Assembly: GCF_004194535.1 (NCBI RefSeq)
Contig: NZ_CP025781.1
Coordinates: forward strand, 1,116,001 to 1,180,000
Reading direction: 5' to 3'
Source of the DNA: Iodobacter fluviatilis
GTDB taxonomy: Bacteria; Pseudomonadota; Gammaproteobacteria; Burkholderiales; Chitinibacteraceae
DNA length: 64,000 nt
Below the pieces are notes generated by a model that searched no databases, was not told the DNA's origin, and worked only from the letters and a program-made list of their open reading frames with translations. Both the position numbers and the translations under genes were made by a program. Below are positions 36,444 through 41,786 of the stretch, piece after piece. How positions within the stretch are numbered: position 1 is the first letter of the stretch; the number at the start of each line of letters is the position of its first letter.

Positions 36444-37895
36444 ATGTCCTCGAGCAGCAAAAAACCAAAGCTCCAAAAGATCGCCTTGCTACTGGCAGGC
36501 GCAGGTCTGGGCGTTGCCCTCAGTCTTTCCTTTAATGCCGTCGCCGATAAAGATGCAGGCGGGAACCCTCTGCCCGTTGAAGAGCTACGGGCATTTTCAA
36601 CGGTGTTTGGCCTGATTAAGCAAAGCTATGTTGAGCCAGTTGAAGATAAAAAGCTGATTACAGAAGCCATCAAAGGCATGGTTTCTGGCCTTGACCCCCA
36701 CTCAAGCTATCTAGATGCCGATGCATTTAAAGATATGCAAATCCAAACCCAAGGTGAGTTTGGTGGTTTGGGCATAGAAGTCAGCATGGAAGACGGCTTG
36801 GTTCGAGTCGTCTCGCCAATCGAAGACACCCCTGCTTACCGCGCAGGCGTAAAAGCCGGTGACTTTATCGCTAAAATCGACGAAACACCTGTGCAAGGCA
36901 TGTCGCTTAATGATGCCGTGACCAAGATGCGCGGCAAGATCGGTACATCCGTAACGCTCACCATGTTACGCAAAGGCGAAAGCAAGCCAATTGTGCTATC
37001 GCTAAAACGAGCGGTGATTAAAGTGCAAAGCGTGAAATCTAAGCTTGCCGAACCTGGCTACGGCTATATCCGTGTGGCGCAATTCCAAGAACACACCACA
37101 GAAAACGTCGCCCAAGCCTTAGAAGCGCTTTATAAAGAAAACAAAGCGCCCCTCAAAGGCGTCGTCTTAGATTTGCGTAATGATCCGGGTGGTTTGCTAA
37201 ACGGTGCAGTGGGTGTATCCGCAGCATTCTTACCTAAAGATACGCTGGTGGTTTACACCGAAGGCCGCACACCGGATTCTAAGATCAAGCTCACCGCTAG
37301 CAAGGAAAACTATCTACGCGAAAGTGGTAAAGATGATTACTTTAAAAACACACCAAAAGAAGTCAAAACCGTACCACTGGTCATCTTGGTCAATGGTGGA
37401 TCGGCTTCTGCTTCAGAAATCGTAGCGGGTGCATTGCAAGATCATAAGCGCGCCATCGTAGTTGGGACTCAGACTTTTGGTAAAGCATCGGTACAAACCA
37501 TCATGCCGATTGATAACAAAACGGCTCTGAAGCTCACCACCGCACGCTATTTCACCCCGCTAGGCCGCTCGATTCAGTTAAAAGGGATCACTCCGGATAT
37601 CGAGGTTGAAGAAGCAACCCTCAATGGCAAGGAACAAAGCGCCTTCCGTATTCGTGAAGCTGATTTAGGCCATCGTTTGGATAACCCAAATGAAAAAGAC
37701 GCAGGTAAAGCGGCATCCGAGCCTAAAGCCGTCATCAAGGCCCAAAAACCTAAAGGAGCTGTAAGCGAAACGGCGGAAGACACCCCACGCGAGCTGGCTT
37801 CTAAAAATGACTACCAACTGCAACAAGCGCTAAATATTTTAAAAGTTCAGCAAATTTTACAAAATAAAGCTGTAGCAGCACCCGCTAAGCCGTAG
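36444..37895 (+). CDS. ctpA: Carboxy-terminal processing protease CtpA (S41)
   Basis: 483 residues. There is an N-terminal membrane anchor/signal (about 10-33), a PDZ domain (about 95-170, EFGGLGIEVSMEDGLVRVVSPIEDTPAYRAGVKAGD) and an S41 core with the catalytic serine in GGSASASEIVAGAL (near 322) and lysine in TFGKASVQT (near 347). A charged Lys/Glu-rich tail follows. It trims periplasmic proteins and murein hydrolases, which fits its place after envC. The envC-ctpA-moeB order is common in betaproteobacteria. Confidence 0.95.
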   Translation: MSSSSKKPKLQKIALLLAGAGLGVALSLSFNAVADKDAGGNPLPVEELRAFSTVFGLIKQSYVEPVEDKKLITEAIKGMVSGLDPHSSYLDADAFKDMQIQTQGEFGGLGIEVSMEDGLVRVVSPIEDTPAYRAGVKAGDFIAKIDETPVQGMSLNDAVTKMRGKIGTSVTLTMLRKGESKPIVLSLKRAVIKVQSVKSKLAEPGYGYIRVAQFQEHTTENVAQALEALYKENKAPLKGVVLDLRNDPGGLLNGAVGVSAAFLPKDTLVVYTEGRTPDSKIKLTASKENYLRESGKDDYFKNTPKEVKTVPLVILVNGGSASASEIVAGALQDHKRAIVVGTQTFGKASVQTIMPIDNKTALKLTTARYFTPLGRSIQLKGITPDIEVEEATLNGKEQSAFRIREADLGHRLDNPNEKDAGKAASEPKAVIKAQKPKGAVSETAEDTPRELASKNDYQLQQALNILKVQQILQNKAVAAPAKP

Positions 37896-38478: not shown

Positions 38479-39279
38479 ATGATCAGCCGAATGCCTCTCC
38501 AATCTGTTGCTAACGAAGCGGATCTTAGCGATCAAGATTTACTGCGCTATAGCCGCCATATTTTACTCGATGAAATCGGTATTGAAGGCCAGTTGGCGAT
38601 CAGCAATTCCCATATTCTGCTGATTGGAGCGGGAGGCTTAGGCTCACCCGCGGCACTGTACCTAGCCTCCGCAGGCGTTGGCACACTCAGTATGGTAGAT
38701 GACGATCATGTGGAATTATCTAATTTACAACGTCAGATTATCCATAACACAGCCAGCCTTGGGCAGAACAAAGCCTTATCTGCCAGAGTGGCGGCTATCG
38801 CAATCAACCCGCAAATAAAAATCAATGCAATCACCACACGCGCCACGGCAGCCGAGCTAGATCAACTCGTGGCAGCGGCCGATATTGTGCTGGATTGCTG
38901 CGATAATTTTGCCACTCGCCACGCGGTAAACCGCGCCTGTGTCGTACACAAAGTACCACTGGTTTCAGGCGCAGCGGTACGCTTTGACGGTCAGCTCACC
39001 ACTTTTGATTCACGCCTCAGTAATGCTCCCTGCTACCACTGTTTGTTTGGGGAAGAAGGCGACACTAGCGATGGCCCATGCGCCACCTTCGGCGTATTTG
39101 CCCCTCTGGTAGGGATTATTGGCGCGGCTCAAGCCGCAGAGGCGCTCAAACTACTGGTGGGAATAGGCACGCCGCTGATTGGGCGCTTGCAGCTATTAGA
39201 TGCTCGGAATATGGCTTGGCGTGAAATGCGCTACAAACAAGATCCTGCCTGCCCAGTTTGTCATCACCACACACAGTAA
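38479..39279 (+). CDS. moeB: HesA/MoeB/ThiF family E1-like adenylyltransferase
   Basis: 266 residues. The ATP-binding glycine motif LLIGAGGLGSPAALYLA (about 49-65), DDDHVELSNLQRQI, a catalytic-type cysteine in DGPCATFG, and two zinc CxxC pairs (CYHC, CPVC) are all visible. It adenylates the C-terminal glycine of a ubiquitin-like sulfur carrier (MoaD or ThiS) for molybdopterin or thiamine synthesis. MoeB is preferred over ThiF because of the ctpA-moeB order; sequence alone does not settle it. Confidence 0.88.
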   Translation: MISRMPLQSVANEADLSDQDLLRYSRHILLDEIGIEGQLAISNSHILLIGAGGLGSPAALYLASAGVGTLSMVDDDHVELSNLQRQIIHNTASLGQNKALSARVAAIAINPQIKINAITTRATAAELDQLVAAADIVLDCCDNFATRHAVNRACVVHKVPLVSGAAVRFDGQLTTFDSRLSNAPCYHCLFGEEGDTSDGPCATFGVFAPLVGIIGAAQAAEALKLLVGIGTPLIGRLQLLDARNMAWREMRYKQDPACPVCHHHTQ

Positions 39280-39349
39280 ATGATAATAATTATCAATAAA
39301 TAGCTTGCTAATATAGACAAGCGGTCTAAAAGCTGCAATAGTAGAGCCC

Positions 39350-39427
39350 ATGAACGCACTTCAACGCCCCCTTATTTCCCAGCCAACGAGCTGGTGCTAC
39401 CGCCACTATATGTTACTGGCGGCCTAG
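39350..39427 (+). CDS. Predicted trpS leader peptide (25 aa)
   Basis: A short ORF, ATG 39350 to TAG 39425-39427, reads MNALQRPLISQPTSWCYRHY followed by MLLAA. It holds one Trp codon (TGG, 39392-39394). Two mutually exclusive hairpins and a terminator follow directly (39400-39476), ahead of the tryptophanyl-tRNA synthetase gene. This is the layout of a transcription-attenuation leader. The peptide itself probably has no function beyond ribosome positioning. Confidence 0.65.
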   Translation: MNALQRPLISQPTSWCYRHYMLLAA

Positions 39428-39476
39428 ACTCATTTATTTGAACGATGCCGCCGGTCCAGGCGGCATTGTTGTTTTT
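39400..39476 (+). promoter_or_regulatory. Transcription attenuator of trpS
   Basis: Segment 1 CCGCCA (39400-39405) pairs with TGGCGG (39417-39422). GGCGGC (39418-39423) can instead pair with GCCGCC (39447-39452) as antiterminator. ATGCCGCC (39445-39452) pairs with GGCGGCAT (39459-39466), followed by TTGTTGTTTTT, as terminator. A ribosome stalled at the Trp codon would cover segment 1 and favour antitermination. Confidence 0.7.
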
Positions 39477-39524
39477 ACACACCCCATGGGCTCGGCGGCG
39501 TAAATCCACACAAGGATCGAGAGC

Positions 39525-40523
39525 ATGACTTCGCATATTATTCTGACTGGCGACCGCACAACTGGCCCATTGCATCTGGGCCACTTTGTTGGCTCATTAC
39601 AAAACCGCCTCGCATTTCAAGATAAACACACCCAATTTTTAATGCTGGCCGATGCGCAAGCACTCACCGATACCGATCACGATGCAGTACACCGCAATGT
39701 ATTGGAAGTCGCGCTTGACTACCTAGCAGTTGGCCTTGATCCTGCTAAAAACACCATTTTTATTCAATCGCAAGTTCCTGAGCTATCTGAGCTGACTTAC
39801 TACTTTATGAATTTGGTAACGGTGGCGCGCTTAGAACGTAACCCTACGGTGAAAGAAGAAATTCGCCAAAAAAACTTCCAGCGTGATATTCCCGCAGGAT
39901 TTTTAAGCTACCCAGTGAGCCAAGCGGCCGACATTACCGCCTTTAAAGCCACTGCGGTGCCAGTAGGTGCAGATCAAGCGCCGATGATCGAGCAAACCAA
40001 TGAAATTGTGCGCCGCTTTAATACCCTAGTGGGTAAAGATATTCTGCTAGAAACCCGTGCGATTATCCCGCAAACCGGCCGCCTACCAGGCGCAGATGGC
40101 CAAAGCAAAATGAGTAAATCTCAAGGTAATGCGCTGCATTTATCGGCTAGCCCAGATGAAATTAGCCTATACGTTAAAAGCATGTACACCGATGCGAAGC
40201 ACTTAAGAATTAACGATCCAGGCCAAGTTGAAGGCAACGCCGTCTTTACCTTTCTTGATGCTTTTGAACCTGATATTAGTTTCATTGACGATTTGAAAGC
40301 CAAATACCGCAAGGGTGGCTTGGCCGATTCAGTGATCAAGCAGCATTTAGAGGTACGCCTGCAAGAGTTGATCGCGCCGATCCGCACGCGCCGTCTTGAG
40401 CTAGCCAAAGATCCTGCCCATGTTATGCAAATCTTAAAAGCAGGCACGATGCATGCGCGCACCATCGCCGCAGCAACTTTGGGCGAAGTAAAATCTGCAC
40501 TGGAGTTGGACTATTTTAACTAG
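39525..40523 (+). CDS. trpS: Tryptophanyl-tRNA synthetase
   Basis: 332 residues, a class I synthetase of the bacterial type. The HIGH-like motif is PLHLGHFVG (about 15-23) and the KMSKS motif is SKMSKSQGN (near 203). It charges tRNA-Trp with tryptophan. AAGGA precedes the start. An attenuator upstream (39350-39476) suggests that expression rises when charged tRNA-Trp is low. A GC hairpin (40549-40566) without a T tract lies between it and the convergent gntR gene. Confidence 0.96.
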   Translation: MTSHIILTGDRTTGPLHLGHFVGSLQNRLAFQDKHTQFLMLADAQALTDTDHDAVHRNVLEVALDYLAVGLDPAKNTIFIQSQVPELSELTYYFMNLVTVARLERNPTVKEEIRQKNFQRDIPAGFLSYPVSQAADITAFKATAVPVGADQAPMIEQTNEIVRRFNTLVGKDILLETRAIIPQTGRLPGADGQSKMSKSQGNALHLSASPDEISLYVKSMYTDAKHLRINDPGQVEGNAVFTFLDAFEPDISFIDDLKAKYRKGGLADSVIKQHLEVRLQELIAPIRTRRLELAKDPAHVMQILKAGTMHARTIAAATLGEVKSALELDYFN

Positions 40524-40567: not shown

Positions 40568-41569
40568 CTACAAGCTTTGGCCTAGAAAAATTTCATAAGC
40601 TAAATCCACCACCTTGTCAGGGTAATGACGGCCCTCTATCCTGCCAATTAAACGCTCAGCAGCCAGCCGGCCAATCGCTTCACGCGGGGTAATTACGCTG
40701 GCTAGCTGTGGTGCTAGGGCTAGGCCAATATCGAGGGCATTAAATCCTGCCACGCTGATTTGCTCTGGTACACGAAGCCCCAATGCTTGGCAGGCCAACA
40801 TCGCCCCCGCAGCAATATCATCATTGGTGCAAAACACCCCATCCAAATCAGGCGCAACTTGCAGCGCATCACGTAATAATTGCCCGCCTAAGGTAAAGCA
40901 GGAAGGCTGATCGGTGTGAATCAGAATAGGCTCAAAACCCGCCTTAGCCAGTGCCGCTAAATACCCTGCTTCACGCTGGCGAGTTCTATGGTCTAAACGT
41001 GCCGCCAGATAGGCAATCCGCTTGCGCCCTTTAACCAGCATTAAACTCACCATCACTTGCGCCGCGGCGGCATGATTTAAGCCAACCGCCAAATCAATCG
41101 GCCGCTCAGGCAGCTCCATAATTTCTACCACGGGAATAGCGGCGATTTCCAACATTCTTAAGGTGCGATCAGTATGCTGCGTTTCAGACAAAATCAGCCC
41201 ATCGACATTAAACGAAAGTAATTGCTCAATCTGCTGCTCTTCCCGCGCCATGGTATAGCCATAATGACCATAGAGCGCGTGTAATCCAGCTGGCCCAGTT
41301 ACCGACTCAATACCACGTACTACACTGGAAAAAACCTGATTTGACATCGAAGGTAGTAACACACCTATTGCACGGCTTTTGGCATTCGCCAGCATATCGG
41401 GCACACGATTATGGATGTACCCCAGCTCCTCCATTGCCAGTGCAATTTTCTGCGCCGTTGCCACCGCCACTTGCTGCGGCTCACGCAGATAGCGGCTAAC
41501 GGTCATTTTGGAGGCACCTACTTTATCGGCAACATCTTGCAAAGTAGGTCGCCGAGCTTTGTGATTCAT
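40568..41569 (-). CDS. gntR: LacI-family regulator of the GntR (gluconate) type
   Basis: 333 residues from ATG 41569, with AGGA just upstream. An N-terminal LacI helix-turn-helix (RPTLQDVADKVGASKMTVSRYLREPQQVA) precedes a periplasmic-binding-protein-like effector domain (SRAIGVLLPSMSNQVFSSVVRGIESV; GVFCTNDDIAAGAML). It follows E. coli GntR closely in my recall, which represses gluconate uptake and kinase genes. No gluconate genes are in the window, so it acts elsewhere or on an unidentified target. Confidence 0.85.
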   Translation of the reverse strand: MNHKARRPTLQDVADKVGASKMTVSRYLREPQQVAVATAQKIALAMEELGYIHNRVPDMLANAKSRAIGVLLPSMSNQVFSSVVRGIESVTGPAGLHALYGHYGYTMAREEQQIEQLLSFNVDGLILSETQHTDRTLRMLEIAAIPVVEIMELPERPIDLAVGLNHAAAAQVMVSLMLVKGRKRIAYLAARLDHRTRQREAGYLAALAKAGFEPILIHTDQPSCFTLGGQLLRDALQVAPDLDGVFCTNDDIAAGAMLACQALGLRVPEQISVAGFNALDIGLALAPQLASVITPREAIGRLAAERLIGRIEGRHYPDKVVDLAYEIFLGQSL

Positions 41570-41786
41570 AGGATTCCTAAAACAATTTCTGCAAGGGATT
41601 TGTAACAAGGTAAAATCGCTTGGCAGTTTCTTACAAGCTCAATATACGTCCAGTAGCATCAGTATAACCATCTAAAGCATCTCATTTAATTCACACCTAT
41701 ATTGTCTTTACATGTAATTTTAACCTGTACAGCTGATCTATTCTTCGTCTATGTCCGTCTGGCAGTAGATCAATGGGGTATGAAAC

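Follow-up and report, generated by a model that had tools for sequence, protein, structure and literature searches.

A predicted trp-type attenuator with further downstream pairing segments in front of an auxiliary tryptophanyl-tRNA synthetase gene of Iodobacter fluviatilis

The tryptophanyl-tRNA synthetase (TrpRS) gene trpS of Iodobacter fluviatilis analysed here is an auxiliary gene, an extra copy in its genome, and its upstream sequence makes it very probable that a ribosome-dependent transcription attenuator of the trp type controls its expression. Downstream of RNA segments 1 to 4 of this attenuator two further segments, 5 and 6, were found, and their coevolution indicates that the pairings of segment 5 and of the trpS start site are likely to be real. 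Tentatively, we propose a six-segment relay as a possible arrangement, slightly less likely than not, in which one ribosome stall would set both transcription and translation of the auxiliary TrpRS in scattered alpha- and betaproteobacteria. An earlier note on this DNA had read the region as a case of textbook trp-type attenuation. That reading is well supported but incomplete, since the leader ORF is apparently leaderless, the arrangement is more widely distributed, and additional pairing segments follow downstream. All coordinates refer to the window, which is the whole stretch of 64,000 nt that was analysed (contig NZ_CP025781.1, positions 1,116,001-1,180,000 of the forward strand).

The leader and segments 1 to 4 in the window

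Table 1. Features of the predicted trpS attenuator region (window positions).
Feature	Position	Strand	Basis or remark
Promoter: -35 TAGACA 39314-39319, extended -10 TGC-AATAGT 39334-39342	39314..39342	+	Consensus scan, conservation
Leader peptide ORF, 25 codons, MNALQRPLISQPTSWCYRHYMLLAA	39350..39427	+	Single Trp codon TGG 39392-39394; stop TAG 39425-39427
Segment 1, CCGCCA; predicted to pair with segment 2	39400..39405	+	1:2 helix coevolves
Segment 2 (contains TGGCGG 39417-39422); predicted to pair with segment 1 or 39447-39455	39415..39423	+	Sequence, folding
Segment 3, terminator 5' arm (contains GCCGCC 39447-39452)	39441..39452	+	Terminator call
Terminator loop GGTCCA; also predicted to pair with segment 5	39453..39458	+	Loop alone coevolves with segment 5
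Segment 4: terminator 3' arm 39459-39470 and U-tract GTTTTT 39471-39476	39459..39476	+	Terminator call
Segment 5; predicted to pair with 39445-39458, 14 pairs, bulge at 39492	39487..39501	+	Folding and coevolution
Segment 6, trpS initiation region	39504..39526	+	Folding; coevolves with the segment-5 region
trpS, TrpRS of 332 aa	39525..40523	+	Nearest solved structures are TrpRS II

The sequence elements on which the earlier note was built (the ORF, its TGG codon, CCGCCA, TGGCGG, GCCGCC and the terminator) are all in place (Table 1), and two details had to be corrected. The Trp codon does lie shortly before segment 1, but five bases (39395-39399) intervene instead of the claimed 6 bp, and the antiterminator, which had been given six pairs, has nine contiguous pairs including one G-U (39415-39423 with 39447-39455). 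The terminator stem (39441-39470) comprises twelve pairs. The fold of the window leader had a z of -3.54, and none of 200 shuffled sequences was as good (0/200). Of 200 shuffles, 0.5% equalled the antiterminator duplex, and for the 1:2 stretch the fold had a z of -2.46 versus shuffles.

With ample Trp-tRNA, the ribosome would pass the single Trp codon and reach the stop codon, which closely follows segment 2. In this position it would block 2:3 pairing, the 3:4 terminator would form, and RNA polymerase would halt near 39476. If Trp-tRNA is scarce, the ribosome would stall at the Trp codon and mask segment 1; segment 2 could then pair with segment 3, which would prevent the terminator and allow transcription of trpS. 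We infer that stalling, termination and the 2:3 switch occur in this manner in vivo.

The consensus scan detected 3 promoter-like sites in 701 bases, versus 1.0 expected. The -35 box of the promoter in Table 1 starts 36 nt upstream of the leader ATG, the same spacing as in the relatives, and no Shine-Dalgarno sequence was seen in front of the leader ORF in the window. In an alignment of Iodobacter species the leader ATG, the Trp codon, the in-frame stop and the promoter boxes were kept in 9/9 species. Nearly all stem positions were identical in these nine species and changes occurred mostly outside the stems, while the leader ORFs differ by a six-base indel that keeps the frame. The leader motif in the genus is (S/N)W(C/Y)YR, with one Trp codon in all nine species. 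Conservation of the leader and its stems in close relatives, on which the earlier note had let its reading depend, was thus found within Iodobacter, and leaders also stand upstream of orthologues elsewhere.

The minimum-energy fold contained an additional helix that joined bases upstream of the leader ATG to approximately 39485-39493. This candidate was dropped, because the upstream bases vary within the genus and are probably not transcribed.

Leaders upstream of other trpS genes

A first set comprised 108 regions upstream of orthologues (28 plus 80 named loci; L039 and L005 are one contig). As a leader we accepted an ORF of 10-34 codons that starts with ATG, has a late Trp codon and is preceded by a -35-like box 35-37 nt upstream. 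By this rule a Trp leader was found at 77 of the 108 orthologues, and inspection by eye revealed a leader at three of the 31 rule-negative loci as well (L015, L097, L104). Among the 108 loci, the rule found no leader at those of Acinetobacter, Methylophilus and Pandoraea and at most of those of Cupriavidus. A later set of 29 regions consisted of 25 new places from genomes of the window's order, one from its class and three alphaproteobacterial ones; the rule identified a leader in 17 of these 29, and the leader of L169 was recognised by eye alone. The loci are chiefly beta- or alphaproteobacterial, with one titled as a Nitrospira MAG (L091) and one as a deltaproteobacterial MAG (L079).

The 94 leaders found by the rule contain WW in 72 cases and WWR in 64, and in 79/94 Trp lies within the final six residues. 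Examples are YYYWWRP in Chitinibacter tainanensis (L112), TWWRR in Massilia (L052) and MWWRSF in Rhizobium (L078). A leader with one Trp codon, to which the earlier note had drawn attention, is indeed what Iodobacter has, but it is not confined to this genus: a single Trp was present in 22 of the 94 leaders, 10 of which are Iodobacter rows and the others from Duganella, Undibacterium and Crenobacter. By eye, no Trp leader was seen at the trpE gene of the I. fluviatilis genome (L119), at its lower-scoring relatives L120 and L121, or at the TrpRS genes L031 and L032.

The Undibacterium-type loci L063, L069, L077 and L157 lack the leader ORF but still show a promoter-like box and a terminator (by eye). 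These trpS loci apparently carry a decaying attenuator.

Since the leader rule itself includes a promoter distance, initiation of the leader peptide was studied on 68 leaders that were picked by their Trp codons and a downstream GC motif, with no promoter rule, against circularity. Iodobacter, in which neither Trp nor Arg comes after the Trp residue, is for that reason absent from this selection. The sequence TTGAC occurred 35, 36 and 37 nt before the ATG in 15, 28 and 2 of the 68 leaders, respectively (45/68), and in total 5 times at the remaining offsets between 18 and 57. At least 4 bases of AGGAGG preceded 3 of the 68 leader starts (4 with the best in-frame start). A Shine-Dalgarno sequence was present before 61/68 trpS starts when the nearest ATG was taken; an alternative count gave 51/61, with starts mostly chosen by the best Shine-Dalgarno sequence, which favours the contrast. 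These data suggest that transcription begins at or beside the first base of the leader ATG (39350 in the window). An RNA with this 5' end would have to be translated as a leaderless RNA, and this is probably how the leader peptide is read.

Coevolution and the role of segments 5 and 6

To assess pairing across clades, a strand of one clade was paired with its own partner and with those from the remaining clades, and 20,000 permutations of the partners were run; clades were assigned from organism, kinship or sequence. The first set for this test contained 67 of the 77 leaders (13 clades), the others being dropped because their terminator was absent or poorly called (L040, L047, L057, L072, L082, L083, L087, L095, L098, L117). 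In this set the 1:2 helix gave z -3.97 and the 3:4 helix z -6.18; no coevolution was detected for 2:3 (z -1.45, p 0.079). Strong values were obtained for the pairing of segment 3 plus the loop with segment 5 (3+loop:5, z -6.74), for the loop alone with segment 5 (z -5.89) and for the segment-5 region with the trpS start site (z -3.83), and controls were null (-0.71 and +1.54). The later set was fetched afterwards and treated by the same rules, which resulted in 16 loci of 13 groups (L161 gave no terminator and start). Here, 3+loop:5 had a z of -7.80 with the own partner better in 13/13 groups, followed by loop:5 (-5.84), 3:4 (-5.37), the start site (-4.55) and 1:2 (-2.79); 2:3 again showed no coevolution (z +0.60; 16 loci, 13 groups), and the controls were at +1.01 and -0.78. 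When both sets were merged (83 loci, 23 clades), z was -10.32 for 3+loop:5, -7.98 for loop:5 and -7.06 for the start site, and for each of these three pairings the own partner was better in 21/23 clades. Seven controls taken from coding sequence, the leader ORF and the stretch before it ranged from -0.60 to +1.93. The two sets are not wholly independent, as they share families, and L148 and L153, which are near first-set families, are both in the merged test.

The earlier note had suggested a search for compensatory changes in three stems. These changes are seen for 1:2 and 3:4, but not for 2:3. Lack of coevolution in 2:3 is expected if GGCGGC/GCCGCC hardly varies, which is no proof of the helix. 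Compared with shuffles, the antiterminator duplex reached p 0.05 in 28/71 loci (71 of the 77 rule-found leaders; six gave no terminator). Support for the putative 2:3 helix thus comes from conservation and partly from shuffles, not from coevolution.

In the window, 3+loop:5 pairing was calculated at -26.2 kcal/mol (z -3.61), and over 67 loci the mean z was -2.4, with p 0.05 reached by 43 loci. Near-identical rows were removed before the survey of segment 5, and 59 of 67 were kept. The terminator itself leaves the loop free to vary, yet segment 5 matches the loop letters, as in GGACCG/CGGTCC, GGAAA/TTTCC, TGATC/GATTG, GTTC/GAAC and GACAAG/CTTGTC. Segment 5 was not seen in the Undibacterium rows or in L101, and it was weak in g3. 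Within segment 6, ATCC (39504-39507) is predicted to pair with GGAT (39514-39517) across the Shine-Dalgarno sequence, and CGAG (39518-39521) and CAT (39524-39526) are able to pair back to 39486-39494.

In the proposed relay, the terminator 5' arm and loop would be common to three mutually exclusive helices, 2:3, 3:4 and 3+loop:5. Once RNA polymerase has passed, 3+loop:5 would act as an anti-sequestor: starting from the loop, its toehold, it would release the trpS start site. With segment 3 held in 3:4, segment 5 would instead be available to occlude this site. We infer this direction of the translational layer. For the window RNA masked by a stalled ribosome through 39406, and with segment 5 already made, folding gave -33.5 kcal/mol for 3+loop:5, -27.2 for 2:3 and -36.1 for 3:4. 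Stability and opening were compared at 65 of the 67 loci; 3+loop:5 was better than 2:3 in 41/65 and better than 3:4 in 16/65. As 3:4 is the stabler structure in 49/65 loci, the second layer would need co-transcriptional kinetics. The stretch from the Shine-Dalgarno sequence to the ATG was opener with 3+loop:5 than with 3:4 in 45/65 loci and in 11/13 clades, and the mean predicted opening of the trpS start stretch rose from 0.41 with 3:4 to 0.52 with 3+loop:5. The average change in Iodobacter was small (0.45 to 0.47). In the window the opening of the ATG rose from 0.48 to 0.80, with the Shine-Dalgarno sequence unchanged at 0.36.

Several of these data would also fit transcription attenuation alone, with segment 5 serving mRNA stability or the resetting of the RNA after read-through instead of translation, an explanation that we regard as less likely than not. 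The greater stability of 3:4 in 49/65 loci agrees with it, and so does Shine-Dalgarno pairing, which is barely above that of shuffles (0.57 versus 0.49 in 57 loci, after duplicates, long fragments and seven rows with a doubtful segment 5 were left out). Segment 5 overlaps the start-site pairing in 73/83 loci, which is hardly above the baseline of 0.84 and therefore uninformative. Coevolution of the segment-5 region with the trpS start site in the first, later and merged sets argues against attenuation alone, as does the more open start stretch with 3+loop:5 in 45/65 loci. Closure of the Shine-Dalgarno sequence as the sole role of segment 5 was also considered and is a weak candidate, given the same small difference from shuffles.

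It is unlikely that the leader RNA, once terminated (39350 to about 39476), pairs in trans with segment 5 of the trpS mRNA. Coevolution of the loop alone with segment 5 in all three sets would suit such an action, and the attenuator RNA rnTrpL of Sinorhizobium meliloti is reported, in the part of the source available to us, to act on another mRNA (PMC7298713). Pairing with segment 5, however, also involves the 5' arm, and a folded terminator keeps this arm closed; cis pairing as in the relay, moreover, requires no second molecule. A plain terminator of the upstream moeB/thiF-like gene (named by eye) together with a chance ORF is highly improbable: that gene does end at 39279 and short ORFs are common, but the Trp-codon leader, its fixed distance to the promoter and the coevolving 1:2 and 3:4 helices recur before trpS in other genera. 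We give hardly any weight to a T-box or another ligand- or protein-binding element in place of ribosome stalling, for although T-boxes are described in the accessible part of PMC1262725 as controlling many synthetase genes in Firmicutes, the window leader had no Rfam match up to E 5, the leaders of 20 relatives had none at the gathering score, and the leader Trp codons are at the expected place.

The trpS gene and known attenuators

The I. fluviatilis genome has three TrpRS genes: the gene at 39525 and two others, whose open frames are 409 and 439 aa long (L031, L032). The 439-aa protein has an additional C-terminal stretch that by eye resembles DUF1508/YegP. Among solved structures, the best matches of the trpS product were 2a4m and 1yi8 (E about 3e-114), with the next at 3.8e-62. 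2a4m carries the name tryptophanyl-tRNA synthetase II, and we take 2a4m and 1yi8 to be the same enzyme, TrpRS II of Deinococcus radiodurans. A search of the I. fluviatilis genome for a nitric oxide synthase partner gave no PF02898 match. The gene is therefore not classed as a TrpRS II coupled to nitric oxide synthase, and the Deinococcus partnership is not implied.

The distribution of trpS is patchy. Matches at E 1e-90 were present in 31/250 sampled genomes of the window's order and in 2/274 genomes of its class, the I. fluviatilis genome counted. An alphaproteobacterial query had matches in 21/240 genomes of that class, three of which were taken into the later set, and a DNA search among plasmids gave no match. 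Leaders were present in 28/31 genomes with two TrpRS genes versus 4/16 genomes with one (Fisher p 1.1e-5, uncorrected for kinship and assembly gaps). This count covers 47 genomes reached via 48 of the 80 named loci (L103 left out); split genes were merged, rows below the cut-off were omitted, and the leader of L097 (G096) was counted by eye. The leader would tie a scattered TrpRS gene, mostly found beside another TrpRS, to the charging of tRNA-Trp.

In relatives of the window's family we noticed a TrpRS-like paralogue of 290-300 aa without a recognisable KMSKS motif (by eye; L036 458-1354, minus strand, and L038 538-1413, plus strand). The L038 copy has lost the HIGH motif too (by eye) and adjoins an intact trpS on the opposite strand. 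The paralogue may be a non-catalytic relative, and partial TrpRS rows, e.g., in G012, G020, G028, G032 and G035, may represent the same paralogue.

The textbook attenuators of the Escherichia coli thr, leu, trp, his and ilv operons consist of a leader peptide and segments 1-4, and the window's leader shares these parts with them. In the five E. coli attenuators, the terminator arm and loop paired with the downstream spacer at -3.4 to -13.2 kcal/mol, compared with a clade mean of -20.2 for the trpS leaders studied here; the ilvG pairing had p 0.03 versus shuffles and the other four 0.07 to 0.41. In textbooks, amino-acid attenuators have four segments, which govern nothing but the continuation of transcription. 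Coevolution of segment 5 with the terminator arm and loop is similar in strength to that between the two terminator arms, and selection therefore seems to act on something outside the textbook scheme. If segment 5 opens the start site, this would explain how read-through RNA is silenced once tryptophan returns.

For Streptomyces, Vecchione and Sello are said to have published in 2010 an experimental paper on attenuation of the auxiliary, indolmycin-resistant TrpRS gene (trpRS1 / trpS). Attenuation of the second TrpRS gene of Streptomyces was also predicted, as far as the accessible part of that source goes (PMC1262725). According to the passages available of PMC8079986, the S. lividans leader trpL2 is leaderless and has a single Trp codon, and no terminator was found after trpL2. 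By these partial descriptions the Streptomyces and Iodobacter systems are alike in a second TrpRS gene, a short leader ORF with Trp codon and hairpins before trpS. They differ in phylum, and Iodobacter has an intrinsic terminator with U-tract and the coevolving segments 5 and 6.

The trpL-trpE(G) attenuator of S. meliloti likewise responds to Trp and has a leader ORF that starts at the first base of the RNA (PMC7298713, PMC10117765, each in part). Unlike the leader described here it controls anthranilate synthase and not a tRNA synthetase, and the parts consulted of these sources do not mention a segment 5. In Caulobacter crescentus, ribosome profiling identified a small leader CDS before trpS (PMC4117421); compared by description, this is a translated leader ORF on a proteobacterial trpS mRNA, and the accessible text gives no mechanism or structure. 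In tlrB (yxjB) of Bacillus subtilis, a ribosome that stalls in the leader peptide governs termination as well as sequestration of the ribosome-binding site (PMC6851288, in part). By that account tlrB differs from the relay in that it senses an antibiotic instead of an amino acid and that the two hairpins are blocked directly by the stalled ribosome. An antiterminator was not identified in the text available, and no strand is passed from the terminator to start-site control.

In the open-licence literature we found neither a trpS attenuator described for Neisseriales or Burkholderiales nor a fifth segment; older papers may hold more. The beta- and alphaproteobacterial trpS attenuator would belong to a kind of control already known from Streptomyces, with a fifth segment that appears to be new. 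The trpS leaders also provide natural variants for testing leaderless leader peptides.

Some further features were observed around trpS. A gene for a LacI-type regulator (by eye) at 40568-41608 on the minus strand is convergent with trpS, and seemingly the same gene follows trpS in L002. On the minus strand at 37314-37536 there is a sub-threshold Rfam match to Rickettsia sRNA47 (37.8 bits versus a gathering score of 60), which lies antisense within a protease-like gene (36444-37895) and perhaps merely reflects shared coding sequence. In L100 (3781-3828, minus strand), a Guanidine-II riboswitch match above the gathering score was located away from trpS.
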